From contig JAJTDQ010000105.1 in the NCBI GenBank assembly GCA_021300505.1, positions 1 through 35,045 on the forward strand: 35,045 nucleotides of DNA. Reading direction: 5' to 3'. Below are positions 1 through 35,045 of this stretch, one piece after another. The stretch comes from Cryomorphaceae bacterium. GTDB taxonomy: Bacteria; Bacteroidota; Bacteroidia; Flavobacteriales_D; Crocinitomicaceae. How positions within the stretch are numbered: position 1 is the first letter of the stretch; every line of letters starts with the position of its first letter. The notes under the pieces were generated by a model. That model was not told the DNA's origin and did not search any database. It was given only the letters and a program-made list of their open reading frames with translations. The position numbers and the translations under genes were made by a program.

Positions 1-448
1 TTTCGCTCTTTGGGTAAATACCCGTGAAATGTAAAATTTTGACCTGAAAATCCACTTGAAATGAGTGCGAGTAAAATGGATGAAGGCCCCACCATCGGTT
101 CAACAGGAATTCCGTTTTGATGCGCCATTGCAACTACTTCAGCTCCCGGGTCTGCAATCCCCGCGCATCCTGCTTCGGATAAAACACCAACGTTATTTCC
201 ATTGCGTAATGCATAGAGTATTTTTGGTAAGTCGTCTACTCCAGCATGTTTTCCCAATGCATAAAACGTGCATTCATCAATAGGGAATTCTCTATCCATC
301 TTCCGCAACAAGCGTCGAGCAGATTTAATCTCTTAACTGCAAAAAATCGAAGTGCTATCGTTTGTTTGATGACGTCATTTGGAATTATGTCTTGAAGTGT
401 TTCTCCTCCGAGTGTATTGGGAATTAAATAAACGGTGCCTGTTTTCAT
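1..448 (-). pseudogene. rsmI: RsmI-like SAM-dependent methyltransferase, frameshifted and cut by the window edge
   Basis: Resembles the COG0313/RsmI family, which 2'-O-methylates a cytidine of 16S rRNA; Bacteroidota carry a shorter RsmI-like paralogue that starts the same way. Reading from ATG at 448, the first ~38 codons give the typical start (TVYLIPNTLG, then IALRFFAV). The frame is lost near 331-337. The rest of the family sequence continues in another frame to the window edge: EIKSARRLLRKMD, ALGKHAGVDDLPKIL, VGVLSEAGCAGIADPG, VGPSSILLALISSGFSGQ. A loss of one base, or of four if the usual VEN triplet is restored, explains the break. The start overlaps the phosphatase stop (ATGA), so the two are translationally coupled. 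The frame that stays open at 448 ends at 236 in unrelated sequence. Family call is firm; whether the frameshift is biological or a sequence error is unknown. Confidence 0.8.
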
Positions 449-906
449 TTGTGCGTCAATGTATGAATGATTTGGTCTGTTGCTCGATCAAGGAGCGAAT
501 AGACTTCTTTAAAGCCTTCATCACCGCCATAATAGGGGTCAGGGACTTCAAGATTTTTACCTGGTTCAATGAGGTCTAATATCAACGTGACCTTCTGCAA
601 GTCTACATTGTTTCGTGCCAATTTGGAAACATTATGTAAATTGTCCTTATCCATGACAAAGATGCTGTCAAAGATGTCGAAGTCTTGTTCTGTAAACTTT
701 CTAGAGCGGAGGTCGCTAATATCCAATCCGAATTGGCTTGCTGTTTTAATCATTCTATGATCTGGTTTATCGCCAGCATGAAGTCCAGATGTTCCAGCAG
801 AATCAACGATGACAGGAAGATTTAATTTTTGAACTTTATCTCGCAGTAAACCATCCGCCAATGGAGATCGACAAATGTTTCCAAGACAAACCATGAGGAT
901 TTTCAT
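445..906 (-). CDS. low-molecular-weight protein-tyrosine phosphatase
   Basis: Cytosolic phosphatase of the LMW-PTP fold that removes phosphate from phosphotyrosine (or arginine) residues. The P-loop CLGNICRS sits at residues 7-14, with nucleophile C7 and R13, as in the CX5R signature. The general acid is D123 in the DPYY motif. At 153 residues the protein is full length for the family and shows no sign of loss. It is the first gene of a pair with the RsmI-like methyltransferase, whose start codon overlaps its stop. A TATCTTTG element ends only four bases before the ATG, which implies a leaderless or nearly leaderless message. The substrate cannot be told from sequence. Confidence 0.95.
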   Translation of the reverse strand: MKILMVCLGNICRSPLADGLLRDKVQKLNLPVIVDSAGTSGLHAGDKPDHRMIKTASQFGLDISDLRSRKFTEQDFDIFDSIFVMDKDNLHNVSKLARNNVDLQKVTLILDLIEPGKNLEVPDPYYGGDEGFKEVYSLLDRATDQIIHTLTHK

Positions 907-910
907 GTTT

Positions 911-918
911 CAAAGATA
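911..918 (-). promoter_or_regulatory. Bacteroidota -7 element (TATCTTTG) before the phosphatase gene
   Basis: The minus strand reads TATCTTTG, an exact match to the Bacteroidota primary-sigma consensus TAnnTTTG. Only four bases (AAAC) separate it from the ATG at 906, so transcription would start at or next to the start codon. No clear TTTG -33 box is visible at the usual spacing. Confidence 0.6.
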
Positions 919-1100
919 ATAAAACGGCTTGGACTTGAGGGCTTGTAAAGCGTTATTCCGTCGAAACCAGTAAATATTCATTGGCTACTCACTTATATTC
1001 ATTTACCTGCGAAAATTCGTTAATTTATTAGGATGTAAACCAACCAATGCGTACCTTAAACGTTATAAGATTATAATGAAACCAAAAATCGATTATTACC

Positions 1101-1970
1101 ATGAGACAATTAAAAATCACCAAGCAGGTAACAAATCGGGAGACGGCGTCTCTTGATAAGTACTTGCAAGAAATCGGTCGCGTTGAGTTGATCACCGCCG
1201 AAGAGGAAGTGGAGCTCGCACGCAAAATTAAAGCAGGCGACAAAGCAGCATTGGAACGGTTAACGAAAGCAAATCTTCGTTTTGTTGTCTCTGTTTCCAA
1301 GCAGTATCAGAATCAAGGACTTTCTCTTCCAGACTTAATTAACGAAGGAAATCTTGGACTAATTAAAGCCGCTCAGCGATTTGATGAAACGCGCGGATTT
1401 AAATTCATTTCATACGCGGTATGGTGGATTCGCCAGTCAATTCTTCAAGCTCTTGCTGAACAAGCGCGCATCGTTCGTTTGCCCTTGAATAAAATCGGGA
1501 CCATCAACAAAATAAATCGTGCCTTTTCGGAATTGGAACAAAAATTTGAACGTCCACCATCTGCGGAGGAACTCGCTGAATTTTTGGAATGTTCAACAGA
1601 GGAAGTGCGTCAATCACTATCAAACACGGGTCGACATATTTCTATGGATGCCCCACTTATTGAAGGTGATGAATCATCTTCGAGTATGTACGATGTGTTG
1701 ACCAACGATTCACTTCCTGGACCTGAAAAGGAACTCGTAGTTGAATCGCTACGAAAAGATATCGAACGATCACTTTCGACACTAACACCTCGTGAAGGTG
1801 ATGTTGTTCGACTTTACTATGGATTGAATGGAAAGCACCCAATGACTTTGGAAGAAATCGGAGAGCGATTTGACCTTACACGTGAGCGGGTGAGACAAAT
1901 AAAAGAAAAAGCAATTCGACGGTTGAAACATGCTTCCCGAAGCCGGATGTTAAAATCATACCTTGGTTAA
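1101..1970 (+). CDS. rpoD: primary sigma factor RpoD/SigA, short Bacteroidota form
   Basis: Housekeeping sigma factor that directs RNA polymerase to TAnnTTTG promoters. At 289 residues it lacks region 1.1 and the non-conserved insert, as Bacteroidota SigA does (typically ~287 residues). Region 1.2 occupies the first ~40 residues ([16 protein letters not shown]). Region 2 follows, with [31 protein letters not shown] and the promoter-melting stretch [13 protein letters not shown]. Region 3 comes next, and region 4 ends the protein with the helix-turn-helix [18 protein letters not shown]. It starts at ATG 1101, immediately before the conserved MRQLKITKQ opening. It is monocistronic and converges on priA. 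No convincing promoter was found in the ~190 bases upstream. This is one of the window's conserved genes that appears fully intact. Confidence 0.97.
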
Positions 1971-1989
1971 GCGGGATCGACGTCAACAA

Positions 1990-4365
1990 TTAGTCGAATC
2001 GATTTAAATGAAGGAGCGCTATAAAAAGAGTCAACAAACTTCGCACAACTGGAAACTCTGGACCATTCACCCGCTCATTAAATACAGATCTCAAATTCTT
2101 TGCAAGTTCTGCAGCTGCCTGATCGACTAAATGCTCATCAGAATGTTTCAGCGTGAACTGAATAATCTTGAAGAAAGGTGGATAAAAGAAGTTCTTACGT
2201 TCGATGATTTCACTTTTGTAAAATCCACTATAATCGTGCTCAATGACTTTGCGAATTACCCAATGTTCGGGATCGCCTGTTTGTATAACCACTGTTCCTC
2301 GCTTGCCCTTTCTACCTGAACGACCTGCAACTTGTGACATCAAGTGATAAGACCGTTCAAAAGCTCTAAAATCTGGTCGATTGAGCATCATGTCAGCATC
2401 AAGAATCCCTACCAAACTGACATTGTCAAAATCGAGTCCCTTGCTCACCATCTGTGTTCCGATCAGAATGTCGATTTTCCTATTTTCAAAATCAGTTAAA
2501 ATGGTTTCATAGGCATGTTTGGATCGCGTACTGTCCAAATCCAAACGTTTTATACTTACACCAGGAAAAATCAGTGACAACTCGTCTTCCACTTTCTCTG
2601 TTCCGAACCCAATCATTTTCAAACGATTGCTCCCACATGAACGACAAGTTCCAACCGGAGGTGAGTGGTATCCACAGTAATGACATTTCAATGAGTTCGA
2701 GTGCTTGTGATAGGTCAGCGATACGTCACAATTCGTACATTTAGGTGTCCAATTGCAAATCTCACAGCTCCATAGTGGTGTATATCCACGTCTATTTTGA
2801 AAGAGAATGATTTGTTCCTTTCGATTCAATGCTTCACGCATGTGCTCCACCAAAAAAGAGGTGAAATCCGATTGCATGCTTTTTTGTCTGCGTTCCTTTT
2901 TGACATCAGCACAGAATATTTCGGGGAGTTGAAGTCCACCATAGCGCGCATTCAATTCAACGAGTCCATATTTACCGGTTGTGGCGTTGTAATAACTCTC
3001 CATTGCCGGGGTTGCAGAACCAAGTAAAACTTTGGCTTTGTGGATTGTCGCTAAAACTATTGCTGCGTCACGGGCATTGTATCTCGGAGATGGATCATAT
3101 TGCTTAAAACTAGATTCATGTTCCTCGTCAACGATGATTAGTCCTAAATCTCTAAACGGTAAGAAAACAGCTGAACGTGCACCCAAAACGATTCGGAACT
3201 TGTTTGGGTCGTTTTGTAGTACATGGTTCCAAATTTCAACACGTTCGTTCTGGTTGAATTTGGAATGATATACCCCGATTTGTTCACCGAAATAGGCCGA
3301 TAATCGTTGGATTAGCTGCGTTGTAAGGGCAATTTCGGGCAATAGAAAAAGTACTTGCTTCCCTTTGTCGAGTTGTTCTTGAATCAATTGCACGTACACC
3401 TCTGTCTTTCCAGAACCCGTGACACCATGGAAAAGGGTGACATGATGTTTTTCAAAGGTTTGATGTATTTCGTCAAGCGCAGTTTGCTGTCCTTCGGATA
3501 AGGATTTGAACGATTGATCTCCCAAGCCACTTTTTGTAAATCGCGAAATTTGAACACGCTCCTGGCAAATGATCCCTTGTTTTTCTAAAGTGTTTAAGGT
3601 GGATTGTGAAATCCCTTTGTCGAGGAGTGTTTTGCGTTCAATCGGTTCTATGCCCAAGGCACTGTAATCCCCTTCTTGGAGAATCATTAAAAGTGTTTCA
3701 AGCTGTTGTTTTGCAGAAGGTTTTGCTTCTAAGCGTTGAATATGTCCGTTCAAGACATCCTCCGTTGTGCATTCATCAGAAAGTAAAATATAAACAGCAG
3801 TTTTTGCTGAAAATCGATCCTTCAACGCTTCGACCGAAATCACAATTTTCTTATCGATAAGTCGCTTTATGATTGGCTGAATCGTTTGGATACCAACAAT
3901 TTCTGCAATTTGTTTGAGGTCGAGTTGTTCGCTTATTTCTAGACTCTCAACAATCAATGTTTCGCGTTCATCCAGAGATGTATTGATGAGATCGGCATCT
4001 GGGTGAAGTACCACTTTGGTTTCGCTTGCCAACTTAAAGTTAGCAGGTAAAGCGGCATTCATCACATCGCCAATGGGTGCCATGTAATAATTCGATATCC
4101 ATTGCCAAAACTGATATTGTTCTTGGGTAACAATCGGTTCTTGGTCAAGGAAATGAGCCACATATTTTGCGGTATAAGCTGTTGGAGCAACTTCAGAAGT
4201 GCGAATGGCAATACCAGTAACAAGCTTCGAACGACCGAATGGAACGATCACACGACCACCGATACGAATGGAATCATTCATTTCGAAGGGTACGCGATAC
4301 GTAAATTCAGTGTAGACAGGAACCGGTAGGATCACATCAACAAATAACGTTCTCCGTTCACTCAT
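1990..4365 (-). CDS. priA: primosomal helicase PriA, C-terminus frameshifted
   Basis: Replication-restart 3'-5' DNA helicase that reloads the replisome at stalled forks. The N-terminal 3'-DNA-binding domain covers about the first 110 residues. The helicase core begins with Walker A GVTGSGKT at 314-321 and continues with the DEEH box and PRYNARDAAI. A cysteine-rich zinc insert follows (CEICNWTPKCTNCD, then CHYCGYH and CRSCG), then the C-terminal helicase lobe (GTQMVSKGLDFD, VAGRSGRKGKRG). After GPEFPVV near 2045 the reading frame turns into unrelated sequence and stops at 1990. The expected PriA ending survives in another frame (FVDSFYSAPSFKSIRLIVDV, then DPA) and would stop at 1967, overlapping the rpoD stop tail to tail. 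A loss of roughly 25-30 codons plus a frame change fits. The start overlaps the stop of the upstream lipoprotein gene. Core call is very secure. Confidence 0.95.
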   Translation of the reverse strand: MSERRTLFVDVILPVPVYTEFTYRVPFEMNDSIRIGGRVIVPFGRSKLVTGIAIRTSEVAPTAYTAKYVAHFLDQEPIVTQEQYQFWQWISNYYMAPIGDVMNAALPANFKLASETKVVLHPDADLINTSLDERETLIVESLEISEQLDLKQIAEIVGIQTIQPIIKRLIDKKIVISVEALKDRFSAKTAVYILLSDECTTEDVLNGHIQRLEAKPSAKQQLETLLMILQEGDYSALGIEPIERKTLLDKGISQSTLNTLEKQGIICQERVQISRFTKSGLGDQSFKSLSEGQQTALDEIHQTFEKHHVTLFHGVTGSGKTEVYVQLIQEQLDKGKQVLFLLPEIALTTQLIQRLSAYFGEQIGVYHSKFNQNERVEIWNHVLQNDPNKFRIVLGARSAVFLPFRDLGLIIVDEEHESSFKQYDPSPRYNARDAAIVLATIHKAKVLLGSATPAMESYYNATTGKYGLVELNARYGGLQLPEIFCADVKKERRQKSMQSDFTSFLVEHMREALNRKEQIILFQNRRGYTPLWSCEICNWTPKCTNCDVSLTYHKHSNSLKCHYCGYHSPPVGTCRSCGSNRLKMIGFGTEKVEDELSLIFPGVSIKRLDLDSTRSKHAYETILTDFENRKIDILIGTQMVSKGLDFDNVSLVGILDADMMLNRPDFRAFERSYHLMSQVAGRSGRKGKRGTVVIQTGDPEHWVIRKVIEHDYSGFYKSEIIERKNFFYPPFFKIIQFTLKHSDEHLVDQAAAELAKNLRSVFNERVNGPEFPVVRSLLTLFIALLHLNRFD

Positions 4366-5207
4366 GATGTAAAGTTACAAGAATGATTGCCCCAAATGAA
4401 ATTGTTGACACCAGTGCACGTCACCTCTATGGAATGGAATCTGCGTTGACCGATGGCTGCGTTATTTGTTGTGTTGTCACGTAATAACTCAAAGAAGATC
4501 TTCCCATTAGCAGTGAAAGATACAGATGGCGAACCATCAACAGTTTCTGTTTCACCAAGGTTCCAAACAAAAGATTTAAGAGTGTAGGTACCAGCCACGC
4601 GTTCGTAGAAGTTCACTTTCAACTTTGTGTTAATCACACGAGAATTACCTTTCGCAACAGCAACTCCTGTAGGTATATAGCTTCCTGGATTGTCCGCAAA
4701 CTTGAACTGGAAGTTTTGCAAATCAACGGCGGTTGCAATAACTCCATTCACCAATTTCGTCTCACCATCCACAGTAAACTCGCCACCGTTTACAGAAACG
4801 TGAAGTTTGTAGGTCATTGAAGCATCTAATGGAGCTGAAGCTGAAGTTTTGAAGTAATATACCTTTTGCTCTGGTGCATAGAAGACGCCGTTCTCATCTT
4901 TGTTCTGAATAACAGTATCTTCCAACGTCCATTCGCGGTATACAGTTCCGTTTTTGGTTTCTTGAATCGTTGCATCCACTTGTTGGAAGTAACTGGAATC
5001 AGGAATTTGAGCGATTTGCAATGAATTTCCGGGTCCGATAAATGCACGTGTAATTTTTACATAATGCAAGGTGTCTTGTTGATCTAGAAGTCCAACGATT
5101 ACAGCTGTTTCTTTAAAATCACCCACCAAGTTGATGTCCTCAGAGCAAGAAGAAATGCTTAATGCGACAAGGGCTACTACTGCAAATATGTATTTAAATG
5201 GATTCAT
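4362..5207 (-). CDS. DUF4249-type lipoprotein, possibly shortened at the C-terminus
   Basis: The N-terminal signal ends in a lipobox with C21 (LSISSC), so this is a membrane-anchored lipoprotein. The body has the DUF4249 layout: an opening of the form VIVGLLDQQDTLHYVKITRAF followed by predicted beta strands. DUF4249 proteins are Bacteroidota cell-surface or periplasmic lipoproteins of unknown role, often found near TonB receptors. At 281 residues it is shorter than most members (roughly 300-400). The last dozen residues (after TGVNNF) do not look like a family ending. A neighbouring frame reads FGAIILVTLHHE before a stop inside the priA start, so a frame change near 4385-4400 is possible but not demonstrated. 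The stop overlaps the priA ATG, and a TATATTTG element lies 20 bases upstream of the start. Confidence 0.7.
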   Translation of the reverse strand: MNPFKYIFAVVALVALSISSCSEDINLVGDFKETAVIVGLLDQQDTLHYVKITRAFIGPGNSLQIAQIPDSSYFQQVDATIQETKNGTVYREWTLEDTVIQNKDENGVFYAPEQKVYYFKTSASAPLDASMTYKLHVSVNGGEFTVDGETKLVNGVIATAVDLQNFQFKFADNPGSYIPTGVAVAKGNSRVINTKLKVNFYERVAGTYTLKSFVWNLGETETVDGSPSVSFTANGKIFFELLRDNTTNNAAIGQRRFHSIEVTCTGVNNFIWGNHSCNFTS

Positions 5208-6336: not shown

Positions 6337-6355
6337 AAACTTAGTTCAATGAGCG

Positions 6356-6363
6356 CAAAGATA
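6356..6363 (-). promoter_or_regulatory. -7 element (TATCTTTG) for the VOC gene
   Basis: Exact TAnnTTTG match on the minus strand, 19 bases upstream of the ATG at 6336 and just past the end of the patatin gene. It gives the VOC gene its own promoter. Confidence 0.55.
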
Positions 6364-6374
6364 ATATTGTTGGC

Positions 6375-8710: not shown

Positions 8711-9901
8711 ATGGGTACAGAGATGAAGGAGCAAGACCGTAAAATGGTGATTACACTGAAGACATTTTATGGTTTGGAGGAAGTTCTGAAAGAGGAACTC
8801 GAGGAATTGGGATACTCAGATGTTGTCATTTTAAATCGTGCCGTTCAAATCAAAGGGAATTGGAACGATGTCTATTATTTGAATTTACATTGCCGTTGTG
8901 CAATTTCCGTTTTGTTGCAGTTGGCTGTTTTTGAATTGAAAACAGAAGATGATTTGTACAAGCGCTGCGCGAAGATGAATTGGACATCACTTTTTGATAA
9001 AGACAAAACATTTGCTGTAAAGGGTGCCATTTTTTCTGATTTATTTCGCCATTCTCAATATCCATTTTTAGTGGTAAAAGATGCCATTGCTGACTCTTTC
9101 CGTGAAAAATATGGTGAACGTCCTGATGTAAATGTGAAGACACCTCAAGTGATGATCGATTTGTATGTCAATAACACAACAGCAACAATCTCTTTGAATA
9201 CAAGTGGATTGCCTTTGTTCCAGCGCGGATATCGCGAATCAGTAGGGGAGGCACCAATCAACGAAGTTGTGGCGGCTGCTCTTATTCGTATGAGTCGTTG
9301 GGACCGTAAATCGACCTTTGTGGATCCTTTTTGTGGTTCAGGTACCCTTTTGATTGAGGCGGCACTTTTAGCTACTGGGATTCCATCAAACATTGAACGT
9401 CAGCATTATGCGTTCAAGAATCTATTGAATTACGACGCTGAGGTATGGGATGAAATGTATGAAGAGGCCAACAAGAAAGTGAGAAGCTTGCCTTGCCGAA
9501 TCATTGGTTCGGACATTAGCGATGAGATGGTAACCAAGACGCGTCGCAATTTGCGGGGATTCTCCTTTGGACGCTTTGTAGAGACTTCTGTGTGTAGTTT
9601 TGATGAGGTAAAACGTCCTGAAGAACACGGAACGATGATTACCAACCCACCTTACGGGGAACGCTTGGATGTGAATGTAGAAGAAATGTACGATGCCTTA
9701 GGCACATGGATGAAGCACGAAATGAAAGGCTTTGAATGTTGGGTGATTTCTTCAAGCGAAGAAGGATTTAAGTCATTAGGCTTAAAGCCAGACAAAAAAA
9801 TTCGATTGTTCAATGGAGAATTGGAATGCAGTTTCCGAAAGTACAGCATATACGATGGCTCGAAGAAGGTAGCTAAGCAGGATGGAGATCTGAGTTACTA
9901 A
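8711..9901 (+). CDS. THUMP-domain RNA methyltransferase (RlmL N-terminal/YpsC type)
   Basis: Class I SAM-dependent enzyme likely to make N2-methylguanosine in 23S rRNA. The N-terminal ferredoxin-like and THUMP region covers about residues 12-170 (FYGLEEVLKEELEELGY, TISLNTSGLPLFQRGYR). The Rossmann methyltransferase follows with SAM motif I DPFCGSGTLLIEAA, the GSDISDEM acidic loop, and the catalytic TNPPYGERL (NPPY). At 396 residues it matches single-domain relatives; E. coli RlmL is longer because it carries a second methyltransferase domain. Start choice is open between ATG 8711, 8723 and 8744; the last begins just before the conserved region. The stop TAA is merged into the ATTACGA repeat array that follows. 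It appears intact. Confidence 0.9.
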   Translation: MGTEMKEQDRKMVITLKTFYGLEEVLKEELEELGYSDVVILNRAVQIKGNWNDVYYLNLHCRCAISVLLQLAVFELKTEDDLYKRCAKMNWTSLFDKDKTFAVKGAIFSDLFRHSQYPFLVVKDAIADSFREKYGERPDVNVKTPQVMIDLYVNNTTATISLNTSGLPLFQRGYRESVGEAPINEVVAAALIRMSRWDRKSTFVDPFCGSGTLLIEAALLATGIPSNIERQHYAFKNLLNYDAEVWDEMYEEANKKVRSLPCRIIGSDISDEMVTKTRRNLRGFSFGRFVETSVCSFDEVKRPEEHGTMITNPPYGERLDVNVEEMYDALGTWMKHEMKGFECWVISSSEEGFKSLGLKPDKKIRLFNGELECSFRKYSIYDGSKKVAKQDGDLSY

Positions 9902-9929
9902 TTACGAATTACGAATTACAAATTACGAG
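9901..9929 (+). repeat. ATTACGA heptamer array after the methyltransferase stop
   Basis: Four consecutive 7-bp units (ATTACGA, ATTACGA, ATTACAA, ATTACGA) begin on the last base of the stop codon. The same heptamer occurs at 23154-23188, and in inverted, variant form at 23329-23353 and 31288-31337. Confidence 0.85.
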
Positions 9930-9938
9930 TTTGGTGGC

Positions 9939-10200
9939 TGAGGTGCGATAGCAGACTCGAAGCCACGAATTACGAATTTGACACCGTACGATTCGAAGAT
10001 CAATTAAGTCCATTGTCTTTTGTCTTATAGCGTAGCGGTCTTTTGTCTAATTACAATTATGAATTTGGAGGCTCCACCGCAGCGGACACGTGAGGTGCGA
10101 TAGCAGACTCGAGGCCACGAGTTGGACACTGTACCATTCGAAGATCAATTAAGTCCTTTGTCTTTTGTCATAAAGCGCAGCGGTCCTTTGTCTTTTGTCT
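9939..10200 (+). repeat. two ~110-bp direct repeats in the intergenic region
   Basis: The stretch 9939-10048 is repeated, imperfectly, at 10091-10200. Both copies open with the same 22 bases (TGAGGTGCGATAGCAGACTC, then GA), share ATTCGAAGATCAATTAAGTC in the middle and end in the GTCTTTTGTCT word. The copies differ by scattered substitutions and small gaps. No protein reading is convincing. About 40 bases between the copies are unique. This region and the terminators after it fill the 360-base gap between the methyltransferase and citrate synthase genes. Confidence 0.85.
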
Positions 10201-10204
10201 TTAA

Positions 10205-10228
10205 GTCAGCCACGGCTGACGAGTCTTT
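10205..10228 (+). terminator. intrinsic terminator of the methyltransferase gene
   Basis: GTCAGCC and GGCTGAC form a perfect inverted repeat (10205-10220) followed by GAG and a run ending in six T, a Rho-independent terminator for plus-strand transcription. Confidence 0.6.
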
Positions 10229-11667: not shown

Positions 11668-13671
11668 TTAAAGATTATTCAAGGTGTAGTTCAACATCAT
11701 GTTAAATAGGTGGTTTCGTGTGTTTCCGCCATAAATTCCATGGTTTTTATTCGGATAAATGAACAAGTCGAATTGCTTATCTGCTTTCACCAAGGCATTG
11801 ATCATCTCCATCGTGTTTTGATAATGAACGTTGTCATCCGCCGAACCATGGATCAATAAATACTTTCCTTTCAGTTGTTTTACGAAGTTTACTGGTGAAT
11901 TTTCATCATACCCACTTGCGTTTTCCTGAGGTGTGCGCATAAATCGCTCGGTGTAAATGTTGTCGTAGTATCTCCAACTTGTTACAGGTGCCACGGCAAT
12001 CGCCATTTTGAACACATCCGATCCTTTCGTGATTGCTAGTGAAGACATAAACCCTCCATAACTCCAACCCATAATACCGATACGGGTTGGATCAACGTAG
12101 GAGAGTGCCTGAAGTGTTTTGGCTGTATTGATGATGTCTTCGGTCTCCAATTTACCCAATTGAAGGTAGGTGCATTTTTTGAACTCTGTTCCACGATACA
12201 TGGTTCCTCGTGGATCCACCGAAACAACAATATATCCCCTTTGTGCCAATAATTGGTGGAACATGTAATCATTTCCGTCCCAAGCATCTGTCACTTCATT
12301 GTGACCAGGACCACCATAGATATTCATGTAAACAGGATATTTCTTTGTAGGATCAAAATTGGTCGGTTTAATGATGGAGGCATTCAACTTAATACCATTT
12401 GCATCCAAAGTGATGAATTCCTTTTTCGACAGGGTGTACTCTGCTAACTTTTTGTTCAAGGCAGTATTTTCTTCCAAAACACGAATAGCCTTTCCATCAT
12501 TGCTGCAAAGCGTGTAGACAGGAGGGGTGTTGGCATCTGACCATGTCTTCACGAAGTACTTCATACCAGAGGTAAATTCTGCGCTGTTATATCCTTCTGC
12601 ACTGCTAATTGCTTCTTTTCCTGTACCATCCAAGTTGATGCGGTAAATGCACTTGTAGATGGCACGATTGCCAACCTCAGCGTAATAGATTTTCCCGCTG
12701 GCTTCGTCGATTCCATAAAATTCCATGACATCATTCCCATTCGTAATCTTTGTGTTGGTGCCGTCAAAGGTTAATTTGTAAATACGGTTGTATCCGTCAG
12801 CTTCTGAAGTGCGAAGAATCGTATTTCCATCTTTTAAAATCAATAGGTTGTCGTCGATTTCAACGTAGGTTTTTGATGTTTCTTCAAAGAAAACTTTCTG
12901 TGACATTTTTTTACCAGTGAGATCGATCAAGTGGTATTTCAGTTGATTTTGATGGCGGTTTAATGTTTGAATGACCAATTGATTCCTTGTTCCTGACCAT
13001 TGTAAACGCGGGATGTACTCGTACTCACCCAAAACTATTGGCGTGATTTTGCGGTTTGAAATAGTTACGATGTGTGCCGTCACAGTACTATTCGCCTCAC
13101 CCGCTTTTGGATATTTGAAGGTATATTTCTCCGGATAAAGATCTTCGTAATACATCATTGTGAATTCTTTTACTTCTTTAGCTAAATCTTTGACATAGAG
13201 GTCGTTTTTATGAATGTAAGAGACCTTTTTTCCATCCGGCGAGTATTCTGCCAATGTTTGTGGTTGATGTGTATCATCTAAAGGACTTAGCTTTTTTGTT
13301 TTTAAGTCAAAGAGGTAATATACCGCGGTATAACTTCGTCGGTAAATCGATGCTGTATTTGTAGTAAGGAGAACTTTGGTTTCATCGTTATTGAAGAAGT
13401 AATCATCAAATTGAATCGATACACCGTTTAATACTAGGTCTTTTGATTCAAAAAGTACTTCTCCTTTGCCATTTTCTTCAGTGATCAAGTACTTAACAAC
13501 AGCCTGTCTTCCGTCTTTTACTTCAACTTTCGTGTAGTGTAAACCATCATTCATGGAAGTGAAACCATCAACACCACTAGAACGGAATTCATAGGTTTTC
13601 CAAATTTTTTCAACCGTTAGTTGAGAGAACACGTTTAGGTTGATCAGTAAAAAGAGAGCAAGAATGCGCAT
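11668..13671 (-). CDS. S9 prolyl oligopeptidase family, DPP-IV-like, lacking a segment of the propeller
   Basis: Secreted or periplasmic serine peptidase that would cut dipeptides from N-termini. A signal peptide (MRILALFLLINLNVFSQ) precedes a DPP-IV beta-propeller domain, then an alpha/beta hydrolase domain with nucleophile GWSYGGF, Asp in GSADDNVH and His in NKNHGIYGG, all in the expected order. At 667 residues it is about 50 shorter than usual Bacteroidota DPP-IV proteins. The gap falls after NDLYVKDLA near 13170-13185, where KEVKEFTMMYYEDLYPEKY resumes at once. The missing part normally contains the DWVYEEEF motif whose glutamates hold the substrate N-terminus, so exopeptidase activity would be lost. 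The join is in frame. It is monocistronic, with a TATCTTCG element upstream. Confidence 0.9.
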   Translation of the reverse strand: MRILALFLLINLNVFSQLTVEKIWKTYEFRSSGVDGFTSMNDGLHYTKVEVKDGRQAVVKYLITEENGKGEVLFESKDLVLNGVSIQFDDYFFNNDETKVLLTTNTASIYRRSYTAVYYLFDLKTKKLSPLDDTHQPQTLAEYSPDGKKVSYIHKNDLYVKDLAKEVKEFTMMYYEDLYPEKYTFKYPKAGEANSTVTAHIVTISNRKITPIVLGEYEYIPRLQWSGTRNQLVIQTLNRHQNQLKYHLIDLTGKKMSQKVFFEETSKTYVEIDDNLLILKDGNTILRTSEADGYNRIYKLTFDGTNTKITNGNDVMEFYGIDEASGKIYYAEVGNRAIYKCIYRINLDGTGKEAISSAEGYNSAEFTSGMKYFVKTWSDANTPPVYTLCSNDGKAIRVLEENTALNKKLAEYTLSKKEFITLDANGIKLNASIIKPTNFDPTKKYPVYMNIYGGPGHNEVTDAWDGNDYMFHQLLAQRGYIVVSVDPRGTMYRGTEFKKCTYLQLGKLETEDIINTAKTLQALSYVDPTRIGIMGWSYGGFMSSLAITKGSDVFKMAIAVAPVTSWRYYDNIYTERFMRTPQENASGYDENSPVNFVKQLKGKYLLIHGSADDNVHYQNTMEMINALVKADKQFDLFIYPNKNHGIYGGNTRNHLFNMMLNYTLNNL

Positions 13672-16430: not shown

Positions 16431-18830
16431 TTAAAAGAGATAAGTAACCATTAAGAAATAAGATGTTCCGTACATATAGCCATACTTTGGAGGGAAGCGA
16501 CCAATGTTGTTTGAATCGAAACGCAATTGCTCAAAACCTCCCGTGCGGAAGTTTGTATTGTTCAAGATATTGTTCACTGATGCTGAAAGACGAATCATTT
16601 TGTCCTTGATCTTGATTGAACCACCTATGTACATGTCAAGTGTGTAGTTGTTTTCGAAGAATTTGTTTGTTTTCAATGTGTGAATGACTGTTTCACCCAC
16701 GATTTCATTCCATTGAGGATCATCTGGCGTATATTTCGCTAAAGCTTCTTCGGTTCTGCGCGCAGGATTGGGATCGATGTAGATGTCCGTAAAGTAGTTG
16801 AATGATGCACCAACGAACCAGTATTTAGGTGAGCTGTATTTCAATCCAATTGAACCTGCTGTTTGTGGCATTCCTCCAATGTGGAAGTTCTTCAAATAAA
16901 CGGTTTGATCTTGTGCAATCACAACAGGTGAGTTGTTTACAGTTACTGTGGCTACTGGACGAGAGCTATACAAGAATTGTCCCGTTCCTAAAGCTGCGCT
17001 TACTGTCCAGTCTGTTGCAATCGTTGCCTCACGCACTTGGTAATTGATATCACCAGACATAATTTCCATGTTCGTCATTCCATCAACCGTTTTGTCACGG
17101 TTTCTTGGTGAAATGTACACATTGTAGCTGTAAGGAGCCTTTGTCTGGTAAATAGCATTGATGTTGACGAAGTGACGACCAGTAATTTTATATACTAATC
17201 CAGCTTTCACGCCATAGTTGATGTAGTTGTGTTTTTGTCCAACCCCAAATGATTCATTTGGAAATTGTCCATTTCTCATGTTTCCTTCACGGAAGAAAGT
17301 GGTGTGTGACAATTCTAATGCAGCATACCAATCAATTATCTTTCCTTGATCCTTGATTTGGCCGAATACGTTTTGTGAGTTCACATGCATGTTGTAATCG
17401 TAGCCAAACGTTTCTCCTTGACCAACAAGGTTATTCGGCATATCGATGTTGTTCTGAGAAATGTTCGGATCTGCAAACGATTGTTCGGCAAACTGATTTA
17501 CATCCAACCAATAATCACCCCCCATGAGGTCAAGCATTTTTCTGTAATTGTGACTTACGTAGCGGTCGATATTAATTCCTCCAGACAACAACATGTCATC
17601 ACTCAAGCGGCGCGAGAAAATGGAGTTAATACCTATTTGTAGAGGATCGACGCGATACTCCTCCATGATGTAACGCGAACGCTTAAATTCGAGTGAGTTT
17701 CCAGCAACGCCATCAATATTCGTTTGTGTAAAGAGGTTGTTGTAATTGGAATTATAGAGAGCGTCCCAGTTGATTTGACTCACCGATTGATCGCTTCCCC
17801 ACGCAGCAGCTGTATTAGCGGATGCAACAGGATCAGTCGTTGCTGTGTAACTAGGTAGGTATTTATAGTAGTCGGGACGTGGGTCTTGGGCATCGTTCCA
17901 ATTCAAATTCGAATTTCCCGTTTTACCAAAAGTGGCATAAACTGCTGTATTTACAGAGGTGTTTTTATTTGGTGTCCAATAGTGATTAAAGAAAATAGAC
18001 GGACGGTGATTGTTACGCTCGTGTGCATTGCGTTTTACTCTCTCACCAGTATTTCCATCTGTCTGCCAACCCCAATATGGGTTATAGTAATTATTTCCGG
18101 TTAAATCAAAGGCCTCTTGAATTGCGATACCAGAACGACCTTGAACGGTTGGAGAACCAAATCCTACAAACCCAAGACTGTGTTTCGCATTGATTTTCTT
18201 TTCAACGGAAAGGAAATAACTTGCCCCACTGAAGTAAGTGCCTTCCACATACCCTTCTTGACTCCATCGGTAAGAACCTGAGAATGTTACTGCCCAACCA
18301 TTGGCCATTTGACCGGTTGAATGGGTGAACATCAAACGGTTCCTGTATGTACGATTCGTCATGGCATAGCTCACACGCGACTCTTTTCTATCGGCAGAAG
18401 CACGTAGATCCATGTTTGAAAACCCACCTAGACCACTGAAATTATAGGTTGAAGCACCTAATCCAACCCCTGACTCAGGATAACGTGTCACATCATTCAA
18501 TCCTCCCCAATACGAGTAAATACCCCAACCCATCTCAGGGTCATTCATCGGTACACCATTAATCAATACAGAATATTGGTCTGATTCAAGACCGCGAATT
18601 TGATAACGCGCGTTACTAAAATTGAATCCCGCAATACTTGCAAAAACATCTCGAGAAGATTGCAATAATGTGGAAATATCTTGATTTTGCGCATCGGTCT
18701 CCAAGTCATCCGCGGTAAGACTGAAAACAACCACCTCTGTGGTATCTTTCGCTTTCACCGTGGAGTCTGGGACCTGTGTCCAAGAAGTTAAGGGAAGCAA
18801 TAAAAGGATTAAACCTATAACTCTGCGCAT
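16431..18830 (-). CDS. TonB-dependent outer membrane receptor, with an internal gap in the barrel
   Basis: The signal peptide (MRRVIGLILLLLPLTSWTQ) starts at ATG 18830; the frame stays open to 18977 but that extension is poor protein and overlaps the promoter. The plug domain follows (LLQSSRDVFASIAGF, YQIRGLESDQYSVLINGVPM) and then a long barrel ending in an aromatic residue (TYLF). It belongs to the Bacteroidota receptor group with NNYYNPYWGWQ and DPRPDYYKYLPSY. Compared with that group, about 55 residues are missing after SGDINYQVR near 17027-17036; family members there have several strands including a FYHDEYRTFVNY-like motif. The join is in frame. It heads the operon with the DUF5689 and T9SS genes and is likely to import a nuclease product such as oligonucleotides or nucleosides. 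Confidence 0.88.
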   Translation of the reverse strand: MRRVIGLILLLLPLTSWTQVPDSTVKAKDTTEVVVFSLTADDLETDAQNQDISTLLQSSRDVFASIAGFNFSNARYQIRGLESDQYSVLINGVPMNDPEMGWGIYSYWGGLNDVTRYPESGVGLGASTYNFSGLGGFSNMDLRASADRKESRVSYAMTNRTYRNRLMFTHSTGQMANGWAVTFSGSYRWSQEGYVEGTYFSGASYFLSVEKKINAKHSLGFVGFGSPTVQGRSGIAIQEAFDLTGNNYYNPYWGWQTDGNTGERVKRNAHERNNHRPSIFFNHYWTPNKNTSVNTAVYATFGKTGNSNLNWNDAQDPRPDYYKYLPSYTATTDPVASANTAAAWGSDQSVSQINWDALYNSNYNNLFTQTNIDGVAGNSLEFKRSRYIMEEYRVDPLQIGINSIFSRRLSDDMLLSGGINIDRYVSHNYRKMLDLMGGDYWLDVNQFAEQSFADPNISQNNIDMPNNLVGQGETFGYDYNMHVNSQNVFGQIKDQGKIIDWYAALELSHTTFFREGNMRNGQFPNESFGVGQKHNYINYGVKAGLVYKITGRHFVNINAIYQTKAPYSYNVYISPRNRDKTVDGMTNMEIMSGDINYQVREATIATDWTVSAALGTGQFLYSSRPVATVTVNNSPVVIAQDQTVYLKNFHIGGMPQTAGSIGLKYSSPKYWFVGASFNYFTDIYIDPNPARRTEEALAKYTPDDPQWNEIVGETVIHTLKTNKFFENNYTLDMYIGGSIKIKDKMIRLSASVNNILNNTNFRTGGFEQLRFDSNNIGRFPPKYGYMYGTSYFLMVTYLF

Positions 18831-18975: not shown

Positions 18976-19782
18976 ATGAGAATGTGGTTTTTATTTAGCG
19001 TTGTTTTTGTTCAGATAGGTGTCGCATACGGACAGCAGCTGATTGATGGTCTTGTAGCGATGCCTTCAATAAAGGGTCGGAATTATAAAATTGTACATTA
19101 CGATTCTCCAGACCGTCGAGGAGTAGATGTTGCTTTGCTTTATCAGGAAAAGTACTTCCAATACGAATCGTCAGCGCCGTTTACACTCAAGGATTCGAAC
19201 GACACAACTTTTTACACTCGGGATCAATTGTTGGTTAATGGAAAAATAGGTGGTGAGAATTTTCATTTTATTGTTGCACACTGGCCATCAAGAAGAGGAG
19301 GGGAGCGCAGAAGCCGCCCAAAACGAATGCTTGCCGCTCAACTTGGAATGAGCATCATGGATTCTATTCGTAAAAGCGAACCCAATGCCAAGATCATTTA
19401 TATGGGTGACTTAAATGATGATCCAGTAAGTTACAGCATTAAAAATGTGATGGCAACGGAAGGAGACATAACGAAAGTTCAAGCAGGTCAACTTTACAAC
19501 CCTATGGAAAAATTGTTCCTTCAGGGCATAGGAACATTAGCATGGCGCGATTCATGGAATCTATTCGACCAGTTTATGTGTACATCCCCTCTGGTGGAAA
19601 CTGGCAGTGAATTTTCTTCGTACAAATTATTCAAAGCAAAGGTCTTTAATGCTGCATACTTGAAAGGTGCCACCGGTAGTTTTGCGGGGTATCCTTTTCG
19701 AACCTATGTGGGATCAAATTGGCAAGGTGGGTTTAGCGATCACTTTCCTGTATACCTCTACCTCATCAAAGAAAAACAGTAA
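18976..19782 (+). CDS. endonuclease/exonuclease/phosphatase (EEP) family protein lacking its N-terminal catalytic part
   Basis: Secreted EEP-fold (DNase I-like) protein. A signal peptide (MRMWFLFSVVFVQIGVAYGQ) is followed directly by IKGRNYKIVHYDSPDRRGVD, which in full-length relatives (about 340-350 residues) lies ~110 residues into the mature protein. The skipped part normally holds the metal- and phosphate-binding Asn and Glu (YNxEN and EVEN motifs). The later motifs are intact: HWPSRRGGERRSRP, GDLNDDP and the catalytic GGFSDHFPVY near the end. At 268 residues and without the first half of the active site it is unlikely to be a working nuclease as written. The join, near 19025-19045, is in frame. 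It is the first gene of a tight operon, two bases before the next EEP gene. Confidence 0.85.
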   Translation: MRMWFLFSVVFVQIGVAYGQQLIDGLVAMPSIKGRNYKIVHYDSPDRRGVDVALLYQEKYFQYESSAPFTLKDSNDTTFYTRDQLLVNGKIGGENFHFIVAHWPSRRGGERRSRPKRMLAAQLGMSIMDSIRKSEPNAKIIYMGDLNDDPVSYSIKNVMATEGDITKVQAGQLYNPMEKLFLQGIGTLAWRDSWNLFDQFMCTSPLVETGSEFSSYKLFKAKVFNAAYLKGATGSFAGYPFRTYVGSNWQGGFSDHFPVYLYLIKEKQ

Positions 19783-19784
19783 CC

Positions 19785-20920
19785 ATGACGAGTAAAACAC
19801 TGCTTTTGGGTGTAGTTATTGCACTCAGTATTCATGGTGCTCAAGCGCAGGATACGATCAAATTTATGACCTACAACATCCTCAATTATCCTGATATAAA
19901 CACGTCTCGCATCGCTTACTTGAAAACCATTGTCCAACATATCAAACCGGATGTGTTTTTAGTGAATGAAATTACACAGCCCGTCGGTGCGACGAACATC
20001 ATTTCGCAAGCATTAAATCAAAATGGGATAACCTATTACGATAAAGCGTTGTATGTGCAAAGCTCAGATGATGAGAATATGTTGTTCTATAACACCCAGA
20101 AATTGGGGCTTGTGGAACAAAATACGATCACCACCTCATTGCGTAACTTCAATGAATACGTCTTGTATTACAAAGAGCCAGGAATGACAGCACAATCGGA
20201 TACAGTCTATTTTTATGTTTATGCTGCGCATTTAAAGGCGGGAAATACAGCATCTGATATTGCTCAAAGAGGTTCTGAGACATCCATTTTGAAAAGTTAT
20301 TTGTCGACAAGGGCTTATGCTGAAAATACAATCGTTGCCGGAGACTTGAACGTTTATAACAATACCGAAGCCGCGTATATTAACCTTACAGGGGCAACTC
20401 AAGCAAATTTGCATGATGTGGTGGGAAGTGGAGTTTGGCACTCAAACAGCTTCTATAAAATGCACTTCACGCAAAGTACGCGTATCGTTGCCATAGACGG
20501 AGGCGCGACGGGTGGGATGGATGACCGCTTCGATATGATTTTGTTTTCGGATGATATGCAAACAGGCTCAAAGGGCGCGAAATACATCCCCGGAACGTAC
20601 CGTGCTGTTGGTCAGGATGGTTTGCGCTTAAATAGTTCACTCATTGATCCGGTCAATAACTCAGAACCAACAAATGTCATCAATGCACTTTACTATATAA
20701 AGTCTATCCTGTTCCAGCGAATGATTTGCTTTACGTTAAAGTTGATGCTGATGTGAAATCAATCCATTTGGTGGACTTGTCTGGCCGTACTTTAACCTTG
20801 TCCCCTGAAATCTCTGGGGATGTTCTAAAATTGGATGTTTCTACCTTTGCCGTTGGGAGTTATTTACTTCAAGTGGAAACTTCCATGGGGTCTTACACTG
20901 AACGAATCATCATTGAGTAA
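19785..20920 (+). pseudogene. T9SS-secreted EEP-family nuclease, broken by deletion and frameshift
   Basis: The signal peptide (GVVIALSIHGAQAQ) leads into an EEP domain with MTYNILNYPD (catalytic Asn), FLVNEI (Glu), AAHLKAG and VAGDLNVYNN (Asp/Asn). The first open frame runs to 20756 but loses sense after NVINALYY near 20695. Family members continue there with SDHxPV, the catalytic histidine motif, which is absent. From about 20699 another frame gives KVYPVPANDLLYV and runs to a stop at 20920 as a type A T9SS sorting domain (IHLVDLSGRTLTL, GSYLLQVETSMGS). A deletion that removes the SDH segment and shifts frame explains both halves. The remaining sorting-domain stop overlaps the ATG of the next gene by one base (TAATG). 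Family and lesion are clear; cause is unknown. Confidence 0.85.
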
Positions 20921-21477
20921 TGCGTTTCGGAATCATTGTTCTGCTCTTATTCATCCTCGGTGCGTGTGCATCTACCGATACGATTGCAGTGCATCCCGAA
21001 ATGATCAGCATTAAGGCGGATTCAATCCCAAACAATGAATTGTCAGCGATCATTGGTCCTTATCGTGATTCACTAAAAGGTGAAATGGATCGCGTTGTTG
21101 GATACGCTCCATTGCATATGATGGCTGCGCGCCCTTCCTCATCGCTCATGAATTGGGTAGCAGATGCGGTATTTACCGATCAAACACGTGCAGTTCGACT
21201 CAGTACACCAACGTTTTGTTTGCTCAATAATGGTGAACCCATTGCCAATGCACGTGTCGAAAAAGGAAAATTAATGGTCAATGGCATGCGTGACGGAGTT
21301 ACTCATTTTTGGGTAATTACCTCCGACTATTTAATGAATGGTGGCGATAAGGCTACATTTTTTAACAAGCGAACAGAGGTAAACCGAACAGGACGCTTGG
21401 TGCGCGATGCGCTCATGAGTGAAATTGAACGTGTGGGAACCATCAGTGCAGACACTACTTTACGAATTACTTTTTAA
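20920..21477 (+). CDS. 5'-nucleotidase C-terminal (substrate-binding) domain lipoprotein, missing its middle
   Basis: A stand-alone 5_nucleotid_C domain, made as a lipoprotein with C16 (FILGAC). In whole 5'-nucleotidases this domain stacks the nucleobase and supplies the substrate-binding Arg. Seen here are SSSLMNWVADAVF near the start, LLNNG, EPIANARVEKGKLMVNGMRD and the DYLMNGGDKATFF motif. LLNNG normally continues as GGIR and runs ~45 residues, including a PFxN motif, before the SGGEPI part. Here LLNNG joins EPI directly near 21231-21236, in frame. At 185 residues it is short against ~230-250. It is probably the partner of the catalytic domain encoded immediately downstream, two bases on. 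As written, the key substrate Arg loop is missing. Confidence 0.85.
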   Translation: MRFGIIVLLLFILGACASTDTIAVHPEMISIKADSIPNNELSAIIGPYRDSLKGEMDRVVGYAPLHMMAARPSSSLMNWVADAVFTDQTRAVRLSTPTFCLLNNGEPIANARVEKGKLMVNGMRDGVTHFWVITSDYLMNGGDKATFFNKRTEVNRTGRLVRDALMSEIERVGTISADTTLRITF

Positions 21478-24891: not shown

Positions 24892-27800
24892 TTATACAGA
24901 GGCAATTTCTGTCTCTTCAAATGACTCGTCGTCTTTAACCTTCTTTTTTCCAAAACGATCTTTCACACGGTCAACCATGTAATACATCATCGGAACAACA
25001 ATAATGGTTAAAAACATCGAACTCGTAAGTCCACCAATCAGCACCCAAGCGAGGCCATTTTTCCATTCTGCACCCGAACCTGTTCCGGTCGCAATTGGAA
25101 TCATACCAATGATCATGGCAATTGTTGTCATCAAGATCGGACGCATACGTTCGCGCACTGACTCAAGTAAGGCCATGTATGTGGACTTCCCTTCGGCTTT
25201 CAGGTGATTGGTGAAATCCACAATCAAGATGGCATTCTTGGCGACGAGTCCGAGGAGCATAAGCATCCCAAGCATAGTAAAGATTCCCATTGATGATGAA
25301 CTCAAGTTGAGCGCAAGGATGGCTCCTACAAGGGAAACAAAAATGGAGAACAACACCACAAATGGATACACATAGTTGTCGTACAGGGCCACCATGATGA
25401 GGTAAACCAAGATCAAACCTATTCCCATTGCAGTACCCAATGCACCCATAGATTCTTTTTGACGTTTGATTTCACCACCCCAGAGCATACGGATGTTTTT
25501 ATCCAAAGGCTCTTTTTCAAGGTACTTTTCAATGGCCGCAGATACGTTACCAGATGCAGTTCCAAGCACGTAACAACGAATTGTTGTGTTTGAAATTCTG
25601 TTTTTACGTTCTAATGAACCATTCCCGTTTTCAACGCTGATACTTGCAAATTGACTCAAAGCTACTTGCTTTCCATCGTTTGTTGTGAAGGTCATTTTGC
25701 GGATGTCTTCTACATTTTTACGGTCAAATTTATCGGTCATCACGCGGATGTCGTATTCTTGACCTTTCTCGTCGAATTGTGCATCATCATTCCCTGTCAA
25801 GGCATTTTGAAGTTGCATTCCAACCACCGCAATAGGCAAACCCATTTGTCCCATTTTTTCACGGTCAAGGTCGATACGTATTTCAGGTGTAACATCATCT
25901 GTTGAAATCGTTGGATCTTTCGCTCCATCAATTTCTAGAATGGCAGCTCTCAATCGACGTGCTTCACTCAAAAGAAGTTCTGGGTCATCTGAGGACAAGA
26001 AAATCTCTATCGGCGCTTCTTCTGATTCAACCATTCCGATATTCAGTGCTTTCACTTCAATACCTGGATATTTATCCTCAATACGTTTACGAATCTCGTT
26101 CATGTATTGAATGGTTGGATACGTTTTTTGCATGCCTGGTTTCATCTTCACCGTAAGTTCTGATCTGTTTTCAGAACCGAAAGAAGCAGCCCCCATACCT
26201 GAGCTCGGACCTCCAACATTGGCGAAAACGATGTCAACGACGTCTTTTTGAGCGAGAATCATCTGCTCAATCTCTAGGGTAGTCGCATTGTTTTCTTCGA
26301 AAGTGGTGCTCTTGTCGTATTTCAATTTGATCATAAACTTCCCTTGATCCCCTTGAGCCACGAATTCCTGACCAACAATTCCAAGTCCCATGGTCGCCAT
26401 ACTCGCAACGAAAATTCCGAAAATAACAAGTCCCATGATGAGTTTGTGGCGCAGCGACCACCCTACCAATTTCACATATTGCTCTGTGAAAATGGTGATT
26501 CTGCGCTCAAACCAAAGTAGGAATGCTTGGAATGGTTTTTTCGGATTCAATTCAACCTCTTTCGCAAAACGTGATGCCAACCATGGTGTCAAAGTGAAGC
26601 ACACGAAGAGTGACATTAAGGTCGAGACCACAACCACAATCGAGAACTGGTGCAAGATATCTGAAATGGTTCCTTCGATGAAGACCACAGGAGAGAATAC
26701 CACGACATCCACAAGGGTAATCGCCAAGGCAGTAAATCCAATTTCATTTCGTCCATCGAGCGCTGCTTGACGTCGTTTCTTGCCCATTTGAAGGTGACGG
26801 TAAATGTTTTCCAAGACCACAATCGAGTCATCCACGAGAATCCCGATTACCAATGACATAGCCAATAAGGTCATCAAATTCAGGGTGTAGCCCAAGAGAT
26901 ACATCGCAACGAAAGTAGAAATCAACGACGCTGGAATCGAAATCAATACGATGAATGCATTTCGTAAGCTGTGCAAGAAAAGAAGCATCACCGCAGCGAC
27001 CAACAAAACAGCAAGTTCCAAATCATGGATAACTGCATCTACAGAGTCTATTGTTGGAATCGAAGTATCTGTCGCTTTGGTCGCTTTGGCCATGTCCACC
27101 GCATTGGCATCACTTTGTTTCTTGATGCGCAAACCAACACCATTTAACCCGTTCAAACGGCTGATGGTGATTTGATCTTTCGATGCATCCGTAACACTAG
27201 CGACATCGCTCAATCGAATAGTAGACGTTCCGTTGTTTGCAAGGATCAAATTCTGTAAATCTTCCACTTTTTTGAATTTTCCAGAGAAACGAACTGTCAT
27301 TTGTTCCGATTCATCCTTTACTTTACCTGTTGGGAATTCCGCATTTGCTGCACGAATGGCTTGATTTATTGCTCCCAATGAAAGTCCGTAGAGACGCATT
27401 TTTTCCGTGTCCACATTCACACGGAACTCGCGTTTTTCGCCTCCAATAACTTGTACATCACCAACACCTTTGATTTGTTTGATCTGCGGGATGATTTGAT
27501 CATCCATCAACTCCATAAAGGTGCGATCGTCCAAATTCTTACTCACGGCACTTACCTGAAGTACAGGAGATGCATTGGGTTCAATTTTCGAAAGTACGGG
27601 CGTTTGAGCTCCCTCTGGAAGGTTATTGCGTATGTTGTTTACTTTCCGCTGGGCATCTTCCAAAACTTTGTCAATATCTGCAGATTCCTTGAATTCAAGT
27701 AAGAGAATAGACGCATTGTCCAATGAAAAAGAAGTAACCTCAGAGATGTTCTCCAATCCACTTAAGGCATCCTCGAGGGGCTTTGATACTTGACTTTCAA

Positions 27801-33306: not shown

Positions 33307-33773
33307 TGAAACAGAATAGTTGGATAACCATGTTTGTTTTTGCGCTTGGACTTTCTCTCATGTATGCTTGTGGAGGAGGTTTGAATGAAGATGAAGAAGG
33401 AAAAGTAGGCCGTGTGGAATTGAAAAGTCGAATCAAAGAAATGGAAGATTCGATTCGTGATTTACAGGCAAGTTTGCCACAAACCAAGACCATCCCTAAT
33501 CTCACTCATTTTGAGTTAATTAACCGATTGTTGGATTATTACCATGCCTATCCAGAGGATGATTATGCAGCCGAATGTTTGGATAAAGTGCACATGAAGT
33601 ATGCGGGATTGAACATTTTGACACGTGCCGTTCAGTATGCGGACACCTTGCTTCAGAAATACCCGAATTACATCAATCGTGCGATGGTACTCGAAAGATT
33701 CCGTTTGCGTCACCTCGACTTGACATTTGAAGAGTTTATCGACTATCAAATGAATGAGATTTCGAAACGTTAA
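33303..33773 (+). CDS. lipoprotein with helical-repeat/coiled-coil character, probably shortened
   Basis: Lipoprotein with lipobox cysteine C23 (LSLMYAC). A charged helical stretch (VELKSRIKEMEDSIRDLQAS) is followed by TPR-like helices (FELINRLLDYYHAYPEDDYA, AGLNILTRAVQYADTLLQKY). The end, RHLDLTFEEFIDYQMNEI, is the conserved ending of the small Bacteroidota lipoprotein family that often follows def. In relatives, as recalled, about 35-40 residues separate NRAMVLE from this tail; here they join directly near 33693-33700, in frame. It is coupled to def by an ATGA overlap. No function is known for the family. Confidence 0.7.
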   Translation: MMKQNSWITMFVFALGLSLMYACGGGLNEDEEGKVGRVELKSRIKEMEDSIRDLQASLPQTKTIPNLTHFELINRLLDYYHAYPEDDYAAECLDKVHMKYAGLNILTRAVQYADTLLQKYPNYINRAMVLERFRLRHLDLTFEEFIDYQMNEISKR

Positions 33774-33803: not shown

Positions 33804-33832
33804 TTTGAGCGGCTTTTACAAAGGTATATTTG
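33804..33832 (+). promoter_or_regulatory. promoter for the DUF1573 gene (TTTG, 17 bp, TATATTTG)
   Basis: Best promoter in the window: an exact TTTG -33 box (33804-33807) and an exact TAnnTTTG -7 box (33825-33832), 17 bases apart, followed by an A-rich 30-base leader. Confidence 0.8.
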
Positions 33833-33862
33833 ACTCTATTAAGAAACTAAAAAAAAAAGATC

Positions 33863-34306
33863 ATGAAAAAAGCACTTTTATCTCTTGTAGTCTTGTTTGT
33901 TGCCTCTGTTGCGATGAACACTGCTGTTGCTCAACTTGAAACTGGAGCAAAAATCGAATTTACAAAAGACACACACGACTATGGTACTGTGAAATACGGT
34001 GCTGACGGAACATGTACGTTTGAGTTCAAAAACACAGGAAACGAACCATTGATTATCTCGACGGCAAAAGGATCTTGTGGATGTACAGTTCCAGAATGGC
34101 CGAAAGAACCAATTGCACCAGGAGCAAAAGGAACAATCACGGTAAAATATGATACTAAGCGTCCAGGCGCAATCAACAAAAGCGTGACGATTACTTCAAA
34201 TGCAGTAAATGAGCCAACGAAGGTGATTCGCATTAAAGGTAACGTTCTTCCTGCGCCTGAAAGTGGCACACCAGTGAACAACTCTGGAGCACCAACAAAC
34301 AATTAA
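33863..34306 (+). CDS. DUF1573 (Ig-like) secreted protein
   Basis: The signal peptide (MKKALLSLVVLFVASVAMN through AVAQ) is followed by one DUF1573 Ig-like beta-sandwich: HDYGTVKYGADGTCTFEFKN, the conserved SCGCTVPEWP, and PGAKGTITVKYDTKRPGAIN. It is a small exported protein of unknown role, common in Bacteroidota, often highly expressed. The C-terminus is a short P/N/S-rich tail. At 147 residues it is full length. It has the strongest promoter in the window and a terminator 39 bases after the stop, so it is a single-gene unit. Confidence 0.92.
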   Translation: MKKALLSLVVLFVASVAMNTAVAQLETGAKIEFTKDTHDYGTVKYGADGTCTFEFKNTGNEPLIISTAKGSCGCTVPEWPKEPIAPGAKGTITVKYDTKRPGAINKSVTITSNAVNEPTKVIRIKGNVLPAPESGTPVNNSGAPTNN

Positions 34307-34344
34307 TTCGGAAAGGCGTTTCTTCGCTGACTACATACATTTTG

Positions 34345-34388
34345 AATTCCGCCTTCAGCTTACGTTGAACGGCGGAATTTCTTTTTTA
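34345..34388 (+). terminator. intrinsic terminator of the DUF1573 gene
   Basis: AATTCCGCC (34345-34353) pairs with GGCGGAATT (34371-34379); a smaller inner TTCA/TGAA stem may form in the loop. A T-rich run follows. Confidence 0.8.
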
Positions 34389-34498
34389 TGGTTCTAGAAA
34401 AGAGCATTCAACACCCCAAAAAGTTTCCGCCTGTTGATATTTTTTAGGTTAGATTTCATGACCTTATTCGTACATTTAATCGCTAACTGCAGATTTTC

Positions 34499-35045
34499 AT
34501 GTACATCATATTCGATACCGAGACAACAGGACTTCCGAGAGATTGGAAGGCCCCCATTTCTGATACGTCAAACTGGCCACGCGTCGTGCAAATTGCATGG
34601 CAAATTCATGACGAAATGGGGCGTTTGGTCGAACAAAAGGATTATTTAATTCGTCCAGAAGGTTTTGATGTTCCGTATGATGCCGAAAATATTCACGGGA
34701 TCTCCACAGAATTGGCAACAGCCTATGGTGAATCACTAAAGGTTGTGCTAGAAGCTTTCAACAAGGCCCTTTCCATTTCAAAATTTGTTGTTGGACAAAA
34801 TGTAGGCTTCGACCGCAACGTGCTTGGCTGCGAGTTTATTCGCTGTGGGATGGATTCTCCAATGCTCGATATGCCCGTCTTGGACACATGTACCGAGCGA
34901 ACAGCAGAGATGTGTCAAATAGCTGGAGGACGTTACGGTAAGTTCAAATTGCCAACACTTACCGAGCTTCATGATTTCCTTTTCAATCAACCTTTTGCAG
35001 AGGCCCACAATGCAACAGCAGATGTGGAGGCAACGACGCGTTGCT
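34499..35045 (+). CDS. dnaE: DNA polymerase III alpha subunit with N-terminal exonuclease domain (5' part only)
   Basis: The frame opens at ATG 34499 and runs off the window (182 codons seen). It is a DEDDh 3'-5' exonuclease: FDTETTG at residues 5-11 gives the first Asp and Glu, GQNVGFDRN the next Asp, and EAHNATADVEATT the His/Asp. The overall sequence (IHDEMGRLVEQKDYLIRPEG, NIHGISTELA, KLPTLTELHDFLF) fits the exonuclease that Bacteroidota fuse to the front of DnaE, as in PolC, rather than a free DnaQ. The polymerase part is outside the window, so a stand-alone exonuclease is not excluded. The upstream TACATTTA (34470-34477) is one mismatch from a -7 box. No lesion in the visible part. Confidence 0.8.
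   Translation, partial: MYIIFDTETTGLPRDWKAPISDTSNWPRVVQIAWQIHDEMGRLVEQKDYLIRPEGFDVPYDAENIHGISTELATAYGESLKVVLEAFNKALSISKFVVGQNVGFDRNVLGCEFIRCGMDSPMLDMPVLDTCTERTAEMCQIAGGRYGKFKLPTLTELHDFLFNQPFAEAHNATADVEATTRC

Follow-up and report, generated by a model that had tools for sequence, protein, structure and literature searches.

According to Chen et al. 2020 (PMC7111523), metagenome-assembled genomes (MAGs) whose scaffold joins and local assembly errors are left uncorrected bring incomplete or incorrect protein-coding genes into public databases; such error sites lack read support, and Ns are sometimes inserted despite overlapping flanks. Joins that carry no N and omit 57 to 293 bp, of the kind proposed below, are not among the errors described in the part of the paper that we consulted. 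Another point of comparison is the MAG UBA5422 (L244), which, like the draft genome studied here, is scaffolded and contains N runs (117 to 137 bases in UBA5422), one of them inside its citrate synthase gene. In UBA5422, however, identical letters stand on both flanks, which makes the Ns surplus (120 of them at ~6343 to 6462, within the citrate synthase gene), whereas in our draft genome sequence is absent, mostly with no N to mark the place.

The stretch of DNA analyzed, referred to here as the window, comprises bases 1 to 35045 (35,045 nucleotides) of contig G000:C107 in the draft genome G000, which has 2,408,460 bases in 174 contigs and a listed completeness of 85.16%. Compared with close relatives, the genes of the window lack nine blocks of 57 to 293 bp; citrate synthase is in addition short by 9 bp, and rsmI by a single base. 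We put at roughly 90% the probability that the absence of these blocks arose in the construction of a draft derived from a metagenome and does not reflect deletions in a living bacterium.

Losses in the window

A citrate synthase search of the genus, covering 26 genomes with G000 among them, found matches in 24, with the nearest proteins in G018 (98% identity), G014 (97%), and G016 (95%). DNA searches and direct alignments show these three genomes to be colinear with the window, at a nucleotide identity of ~74 to 87% over long pieces. The breaks in the alignments fall at shared positions of the window, and there the relatives carry extra sequence. The 10 sites with losses of at least 9 bp are all covered by G014 and G018, and eight of them by G016, the exceptions being the S9 peptidase and the def-linked lipoprotein. 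An initial annotation of the window had proposed alignment to relatives as a check on the apparent losses, and this bears it out: at the sites that they cover, G014, G018, and G016 keep the longer forms, and the window's lengths and joins recur in none of them.

Several of the losses disrupt the reading frame or remove the end of a gene. In the gene called rsmI in the initial annotation (324..335, minus strand), a net loss of one base relative to all three relatives breaks the frame, and ORF 3-311 is cut off. priA (2040..2042, minus strand) lacks 85 bp near its 3' end, with a frameshift, and the Pfam domain PriA_C is matched by the G014 PriA protein, whereas the window protein gives no match to it at E 0.001. 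The adjoining lipoprotein gene (4408..4409, minus strand) lacks 293 bp relative to both G014 and G018, its C-terminus and stop codon being gone. The second of two endonuclease/exonuclease/phosphatase (EEP) genes (20698..20699, plus strand) is frameshifted by the absence of 79 bp present in G014, G018, and G016, and PF03372 falls just below the cut-off.

Six further blocks are absent in frame. The S9 peptidase (13179..13181, minus strand) lacks 153 bp and still matches Pfam DPPIV_N and Peptidase_S9, and the TonB-dependent receptor (17031..17036, minus strand), with its Plug domain matched, lacks 153 bp as counted against G018, the count of 154 against G014 being due to one extra aligned base. 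From the first EEP gene (19049..19054, plus strand) 255 bp are missing, and PF19580 is matched only from profile position 67, while the RND permease (27075..27077, minus strand), short by 57 bp, matches ACR_tran. The remaining two, named as in the initial annotation, are the 5'-nucleotidase C domain gene (21231..21233, plus strand; 144 bp absent) and the def-linked lipoprotein (33694..33697, plus strand; 117 bp absent); a Pfam search gave no match for the window ORF of either. The ten genes said in that annotation to lack pieces are thus all altered relative to the relatives, but in rsmI the change is a single base and no piece is lost, and the list overlooked an eleventh gene, the lipoprotein gene beside priA.

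Citrate synthase (10843, minus strand) lacks 9 bp at the motif HADHEQ relative to G014, G018, and G016. Among 103 citrate synthase loci, a set of named and unnamed loci that may count some genomes twice, 102 span the site, and every one of these has HADHEQNCS followed by an eight-residue continuation of equal length. The window reads HADHEQKSTVR, a short form found in none of the 102. Several MAG records that contain relatives of this citrate synthase (L224, L225, L229, L233, L237, and L278) bear unlikely names (Polynucleobacter, Chitinophaga, Sphingomonadales, Chryseobacterium, and Lishizhenia), suggestive of mixed bins or of names loosely given.

Losses across the draft genome

To place the window in its genome, we compared 40 stretches of G000 (548,928 bases, window included) with 1,604,991 bases of G014. 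The two aligned over 227,494 bases, 34,508 of these in the window and ~193 kb on other contigs. Thirty clean losses of at least 40 bp were detected in G000, and 27 were kept, nine from the window and 18 from elsewhere; those dropped were two gaps internal to an alignment, of 40 bp and 47 bp, and one loss of 865 bp. The 47-bp gap lies among intergenic repeats, at a place where the relatives disagree. Clean gains in the same comparison numbered two (86 bp with 15 bases left over, and 43 bp). Gaps of 6 to 39 bp, counted over all aligned sequence including intergenic repeats, divide into 36 losses and 18 gains. The larger losses occur on other contigs whatever the function of the gene, and outside the window they affect clpP, rfbA, lpxB (at its start), and a Mur ligase. 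Plain extrapolation gives ~286 losses over the whole genome.

Control comparisons against the same reference genome, G014, and limited to the region syntenic with the window revealed no clean loss or gain of at least 40 bp in either G018 (37,464 bases) or G016 (29,803 bases). At the rate seen outside the window, finding zero losses in 67 kb has a probability of 0.0019. The losses are not evenly spread, with 9 of 27 falling in the 15% of the aligned sequence that the window represents (P 0.015), and this concentration counts against an artefact.

As signs of scaffolding, five N runs (4, 4, 38, 42, and 105 bases) are present in the 549 kb of G000, and none in the 1.60 Mb of G014 or in the fetched parts of G018, G016, G006, and G012. 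At L108:3568-3571, outside the window, NNNN stands where G014 has 142 bp, and here one of the clean losses coincides with an N run, in favor of an artefact. Over the stretches around the second 4-base run and the 42-base run, the relatives are longer by 43 to 44 and by 9 to 10 bases, respectively. Around the 38-base run they are shorter by 49 to 90 bases, making it the one over-sized case among four measurable runs, as the 105-base run could not be sized. The differences come to about +136, +44, +10, and -50 bases, net values over ~3 kb (136 being local) that presumably belong to the N runs themselves. No constant offset connects the runs, which rules out a uniform under-sizing of gaps, and because the differences take either sign, gap sizes in G000 are unreliable in both directions. 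Two aspects of these data count against an artefact: of the 27 losses, 26 are free of Ns and only the one at NNNN coincides with a run, and the over-sized run shows that the sizing error is not one-directional.

Reading frame, junctions, and missing segments

Twenty-two of the 27 losses lie inside a G014 gene and could be counted by frame; of the five excluded, three overlap a gene end or start and two have no ORF. Lengths that are multiples of three make up 11 of the 22 (P 0.079 against one third). In the window the figure is 6 of 8 tested (P 0.020), which leans toward a kept frame and counts against an artefact, whereas outside the window it is 5 of 14 (P 0.52), with no such lean.

At the 11 frame-breaking losses, the frame of the relative was read to either side. 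Split by codon position, the differences number 135/63/648 downstream (4894 sites) and 127/52/559 upstream (3996 sites), and this guided frame contains no stop on either side of any of the 11. The relaxed constraint expected behind the frameshifts of decaying genes was therefore not seen in these 11 genes, and genes whose frame had truly been lost some time ago do not fit this pattern. Among the in-frame losses, the guided frame has stops at L185:13741 (one downstream), L185:20308 (one upstream), the S9 peptidase (two upstream), the 5'-nucleotidase gene (two upstream), and the def-linked lipoprotein (one upstream), all of which we attribute to alignment gaps or to leader sequence ahead of the start codon.

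Junctions were usable for a repeat test in 22 of 28 cases, six being excluded for poor match or size. Their placement is ambiguous by a mean of 1.32 bases (n=22), compared with 1.22 for 5000 simulated random cuts, which points neither to deletion mediated by repeats nor to their collapse. The direct repeat at both ends of the absent segment that would mark repeat-mediated loss was not found beyond the level of random cuts. The missing segments themselves are unremarkable. Their conservation between relatives is 0.836 for G018-G014, against 0.845 for random segments, and 0.934 for G016-G014, against 0.909, and because it is not lower we rule out that they are extra-variable or dispensable. A drop-out driven by GC content is likewise ruled out, as their GC (0.423) equals that of the genome (0.422). 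Two of the nine segments absent from the window were searched for elsewhere in G000 without a match, an empty answer that is uninformative here.

Weighing the explanations

The initial annotation favored an artefact over decay, and here it holds up: the losses are peculiar to this draft, they recur on its other contigs, and codon constraint is intact behind the frameshifts. The alternative, real deletion-driven decay in a lineage that recently lost many 57- to 293-bp blocks genome-wide, draws some support from the frame kept at six of the eight losses tested in the window and from the great excess of losses over gains. It would have to accommodate damage to priA and citrate synthase, and outside the window to lpxB, clpP, and a Mur ligase, with ~286 events implied genome-wide and none in the sister comparison. 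Small coding indels of one or a few bases, moreover, are nearly absent from the window, and the junction repeats do not exceed chance. Together with the persisting codon constraint, these points make decay extremely unlikely. Even fainter is the chance of a real recent burst in a free-living bacterium, in which a few hundred repeat-less deletions of 57 to 293 bp would have struck essential genes before constraint relaxed.

Two further explanations involve the assembly. As its leading reading, the initial annotation took the losses for collapse between short repeats, and it placed several of them at or between short direct repeats. The junction at the 5'-nucleotidase gene, which can be placed over a range of ~6 bases, agrees with this. 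Across the set, however, 8 of 22 junctions can be placed in one way only, and the mean ambiguity is that of random cuts; the junctions look blunt, and neither the placement at repeats nor the collapse mechanism is supported, leaving this version very unlikely. Metagenomes often contain several strains, and the assembly could instead have chosen the shorter alleles of a mixed population. Such a choice calls for real deletion alleles in priA, in citrate synthase, and across the genome, yet the 67 kb over which G018 and G016 were compared with G014 contain no clean loss or gain that reaches 40 bp, and we consider strain variation as improbable as decay.

Blunt joins made during assembly remain the explanation that we prefer. 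Contigs of a few kilobases would have been ordered and then joined blunt while scaffolds or a consensus were being built, and the 57 to 293 bp between them would have been omitted or replaced by too few Ns, mostly unmarked. Candidate steps are the scaffolder, a gap closer, or a consensus stage that dropped uncovered stretches. Particular programs may trim or drop uncovered stretches, although our argument does not rely on this. Since 26 of the 27 losses lack an N, it is from the genome-wide pattern that we infer that the N-less losses in the window arose as blunt joins too. The living cell, by the same reasoning, would have the full genes. The 9-bp loss in citrate synthase and the one-base loss in rsmI may have another cause.

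Gene truncations in the G000 draft should accordingly not be taken as biology. The signature of unmarked joins, namely clean losses of 57 to 293 bp that mostly ignore the frame, leave constraint intact, and spare sister genomes, could serve as a screen for public draft genomes, in which joins of this kind would raise the number of apparent pseudogenes and conceal catalytic residues.

Other features of the window

Two intergenic regions of the window, 9880-10260 and 23149-23340, consist of dispersed repeats for which self-folding is possible. Bases 9909-9978 have 28 matching places in G000 (549 kb) and 47 in G014 (1.60 Mb), and bases 23149-23255 have 94 and 117, respectively. Besides the sigma-70-like gene at 1101-1931 of the window, another contig carries a second one (G000:C92:12177-13004), with 67% DNA identity to the first.
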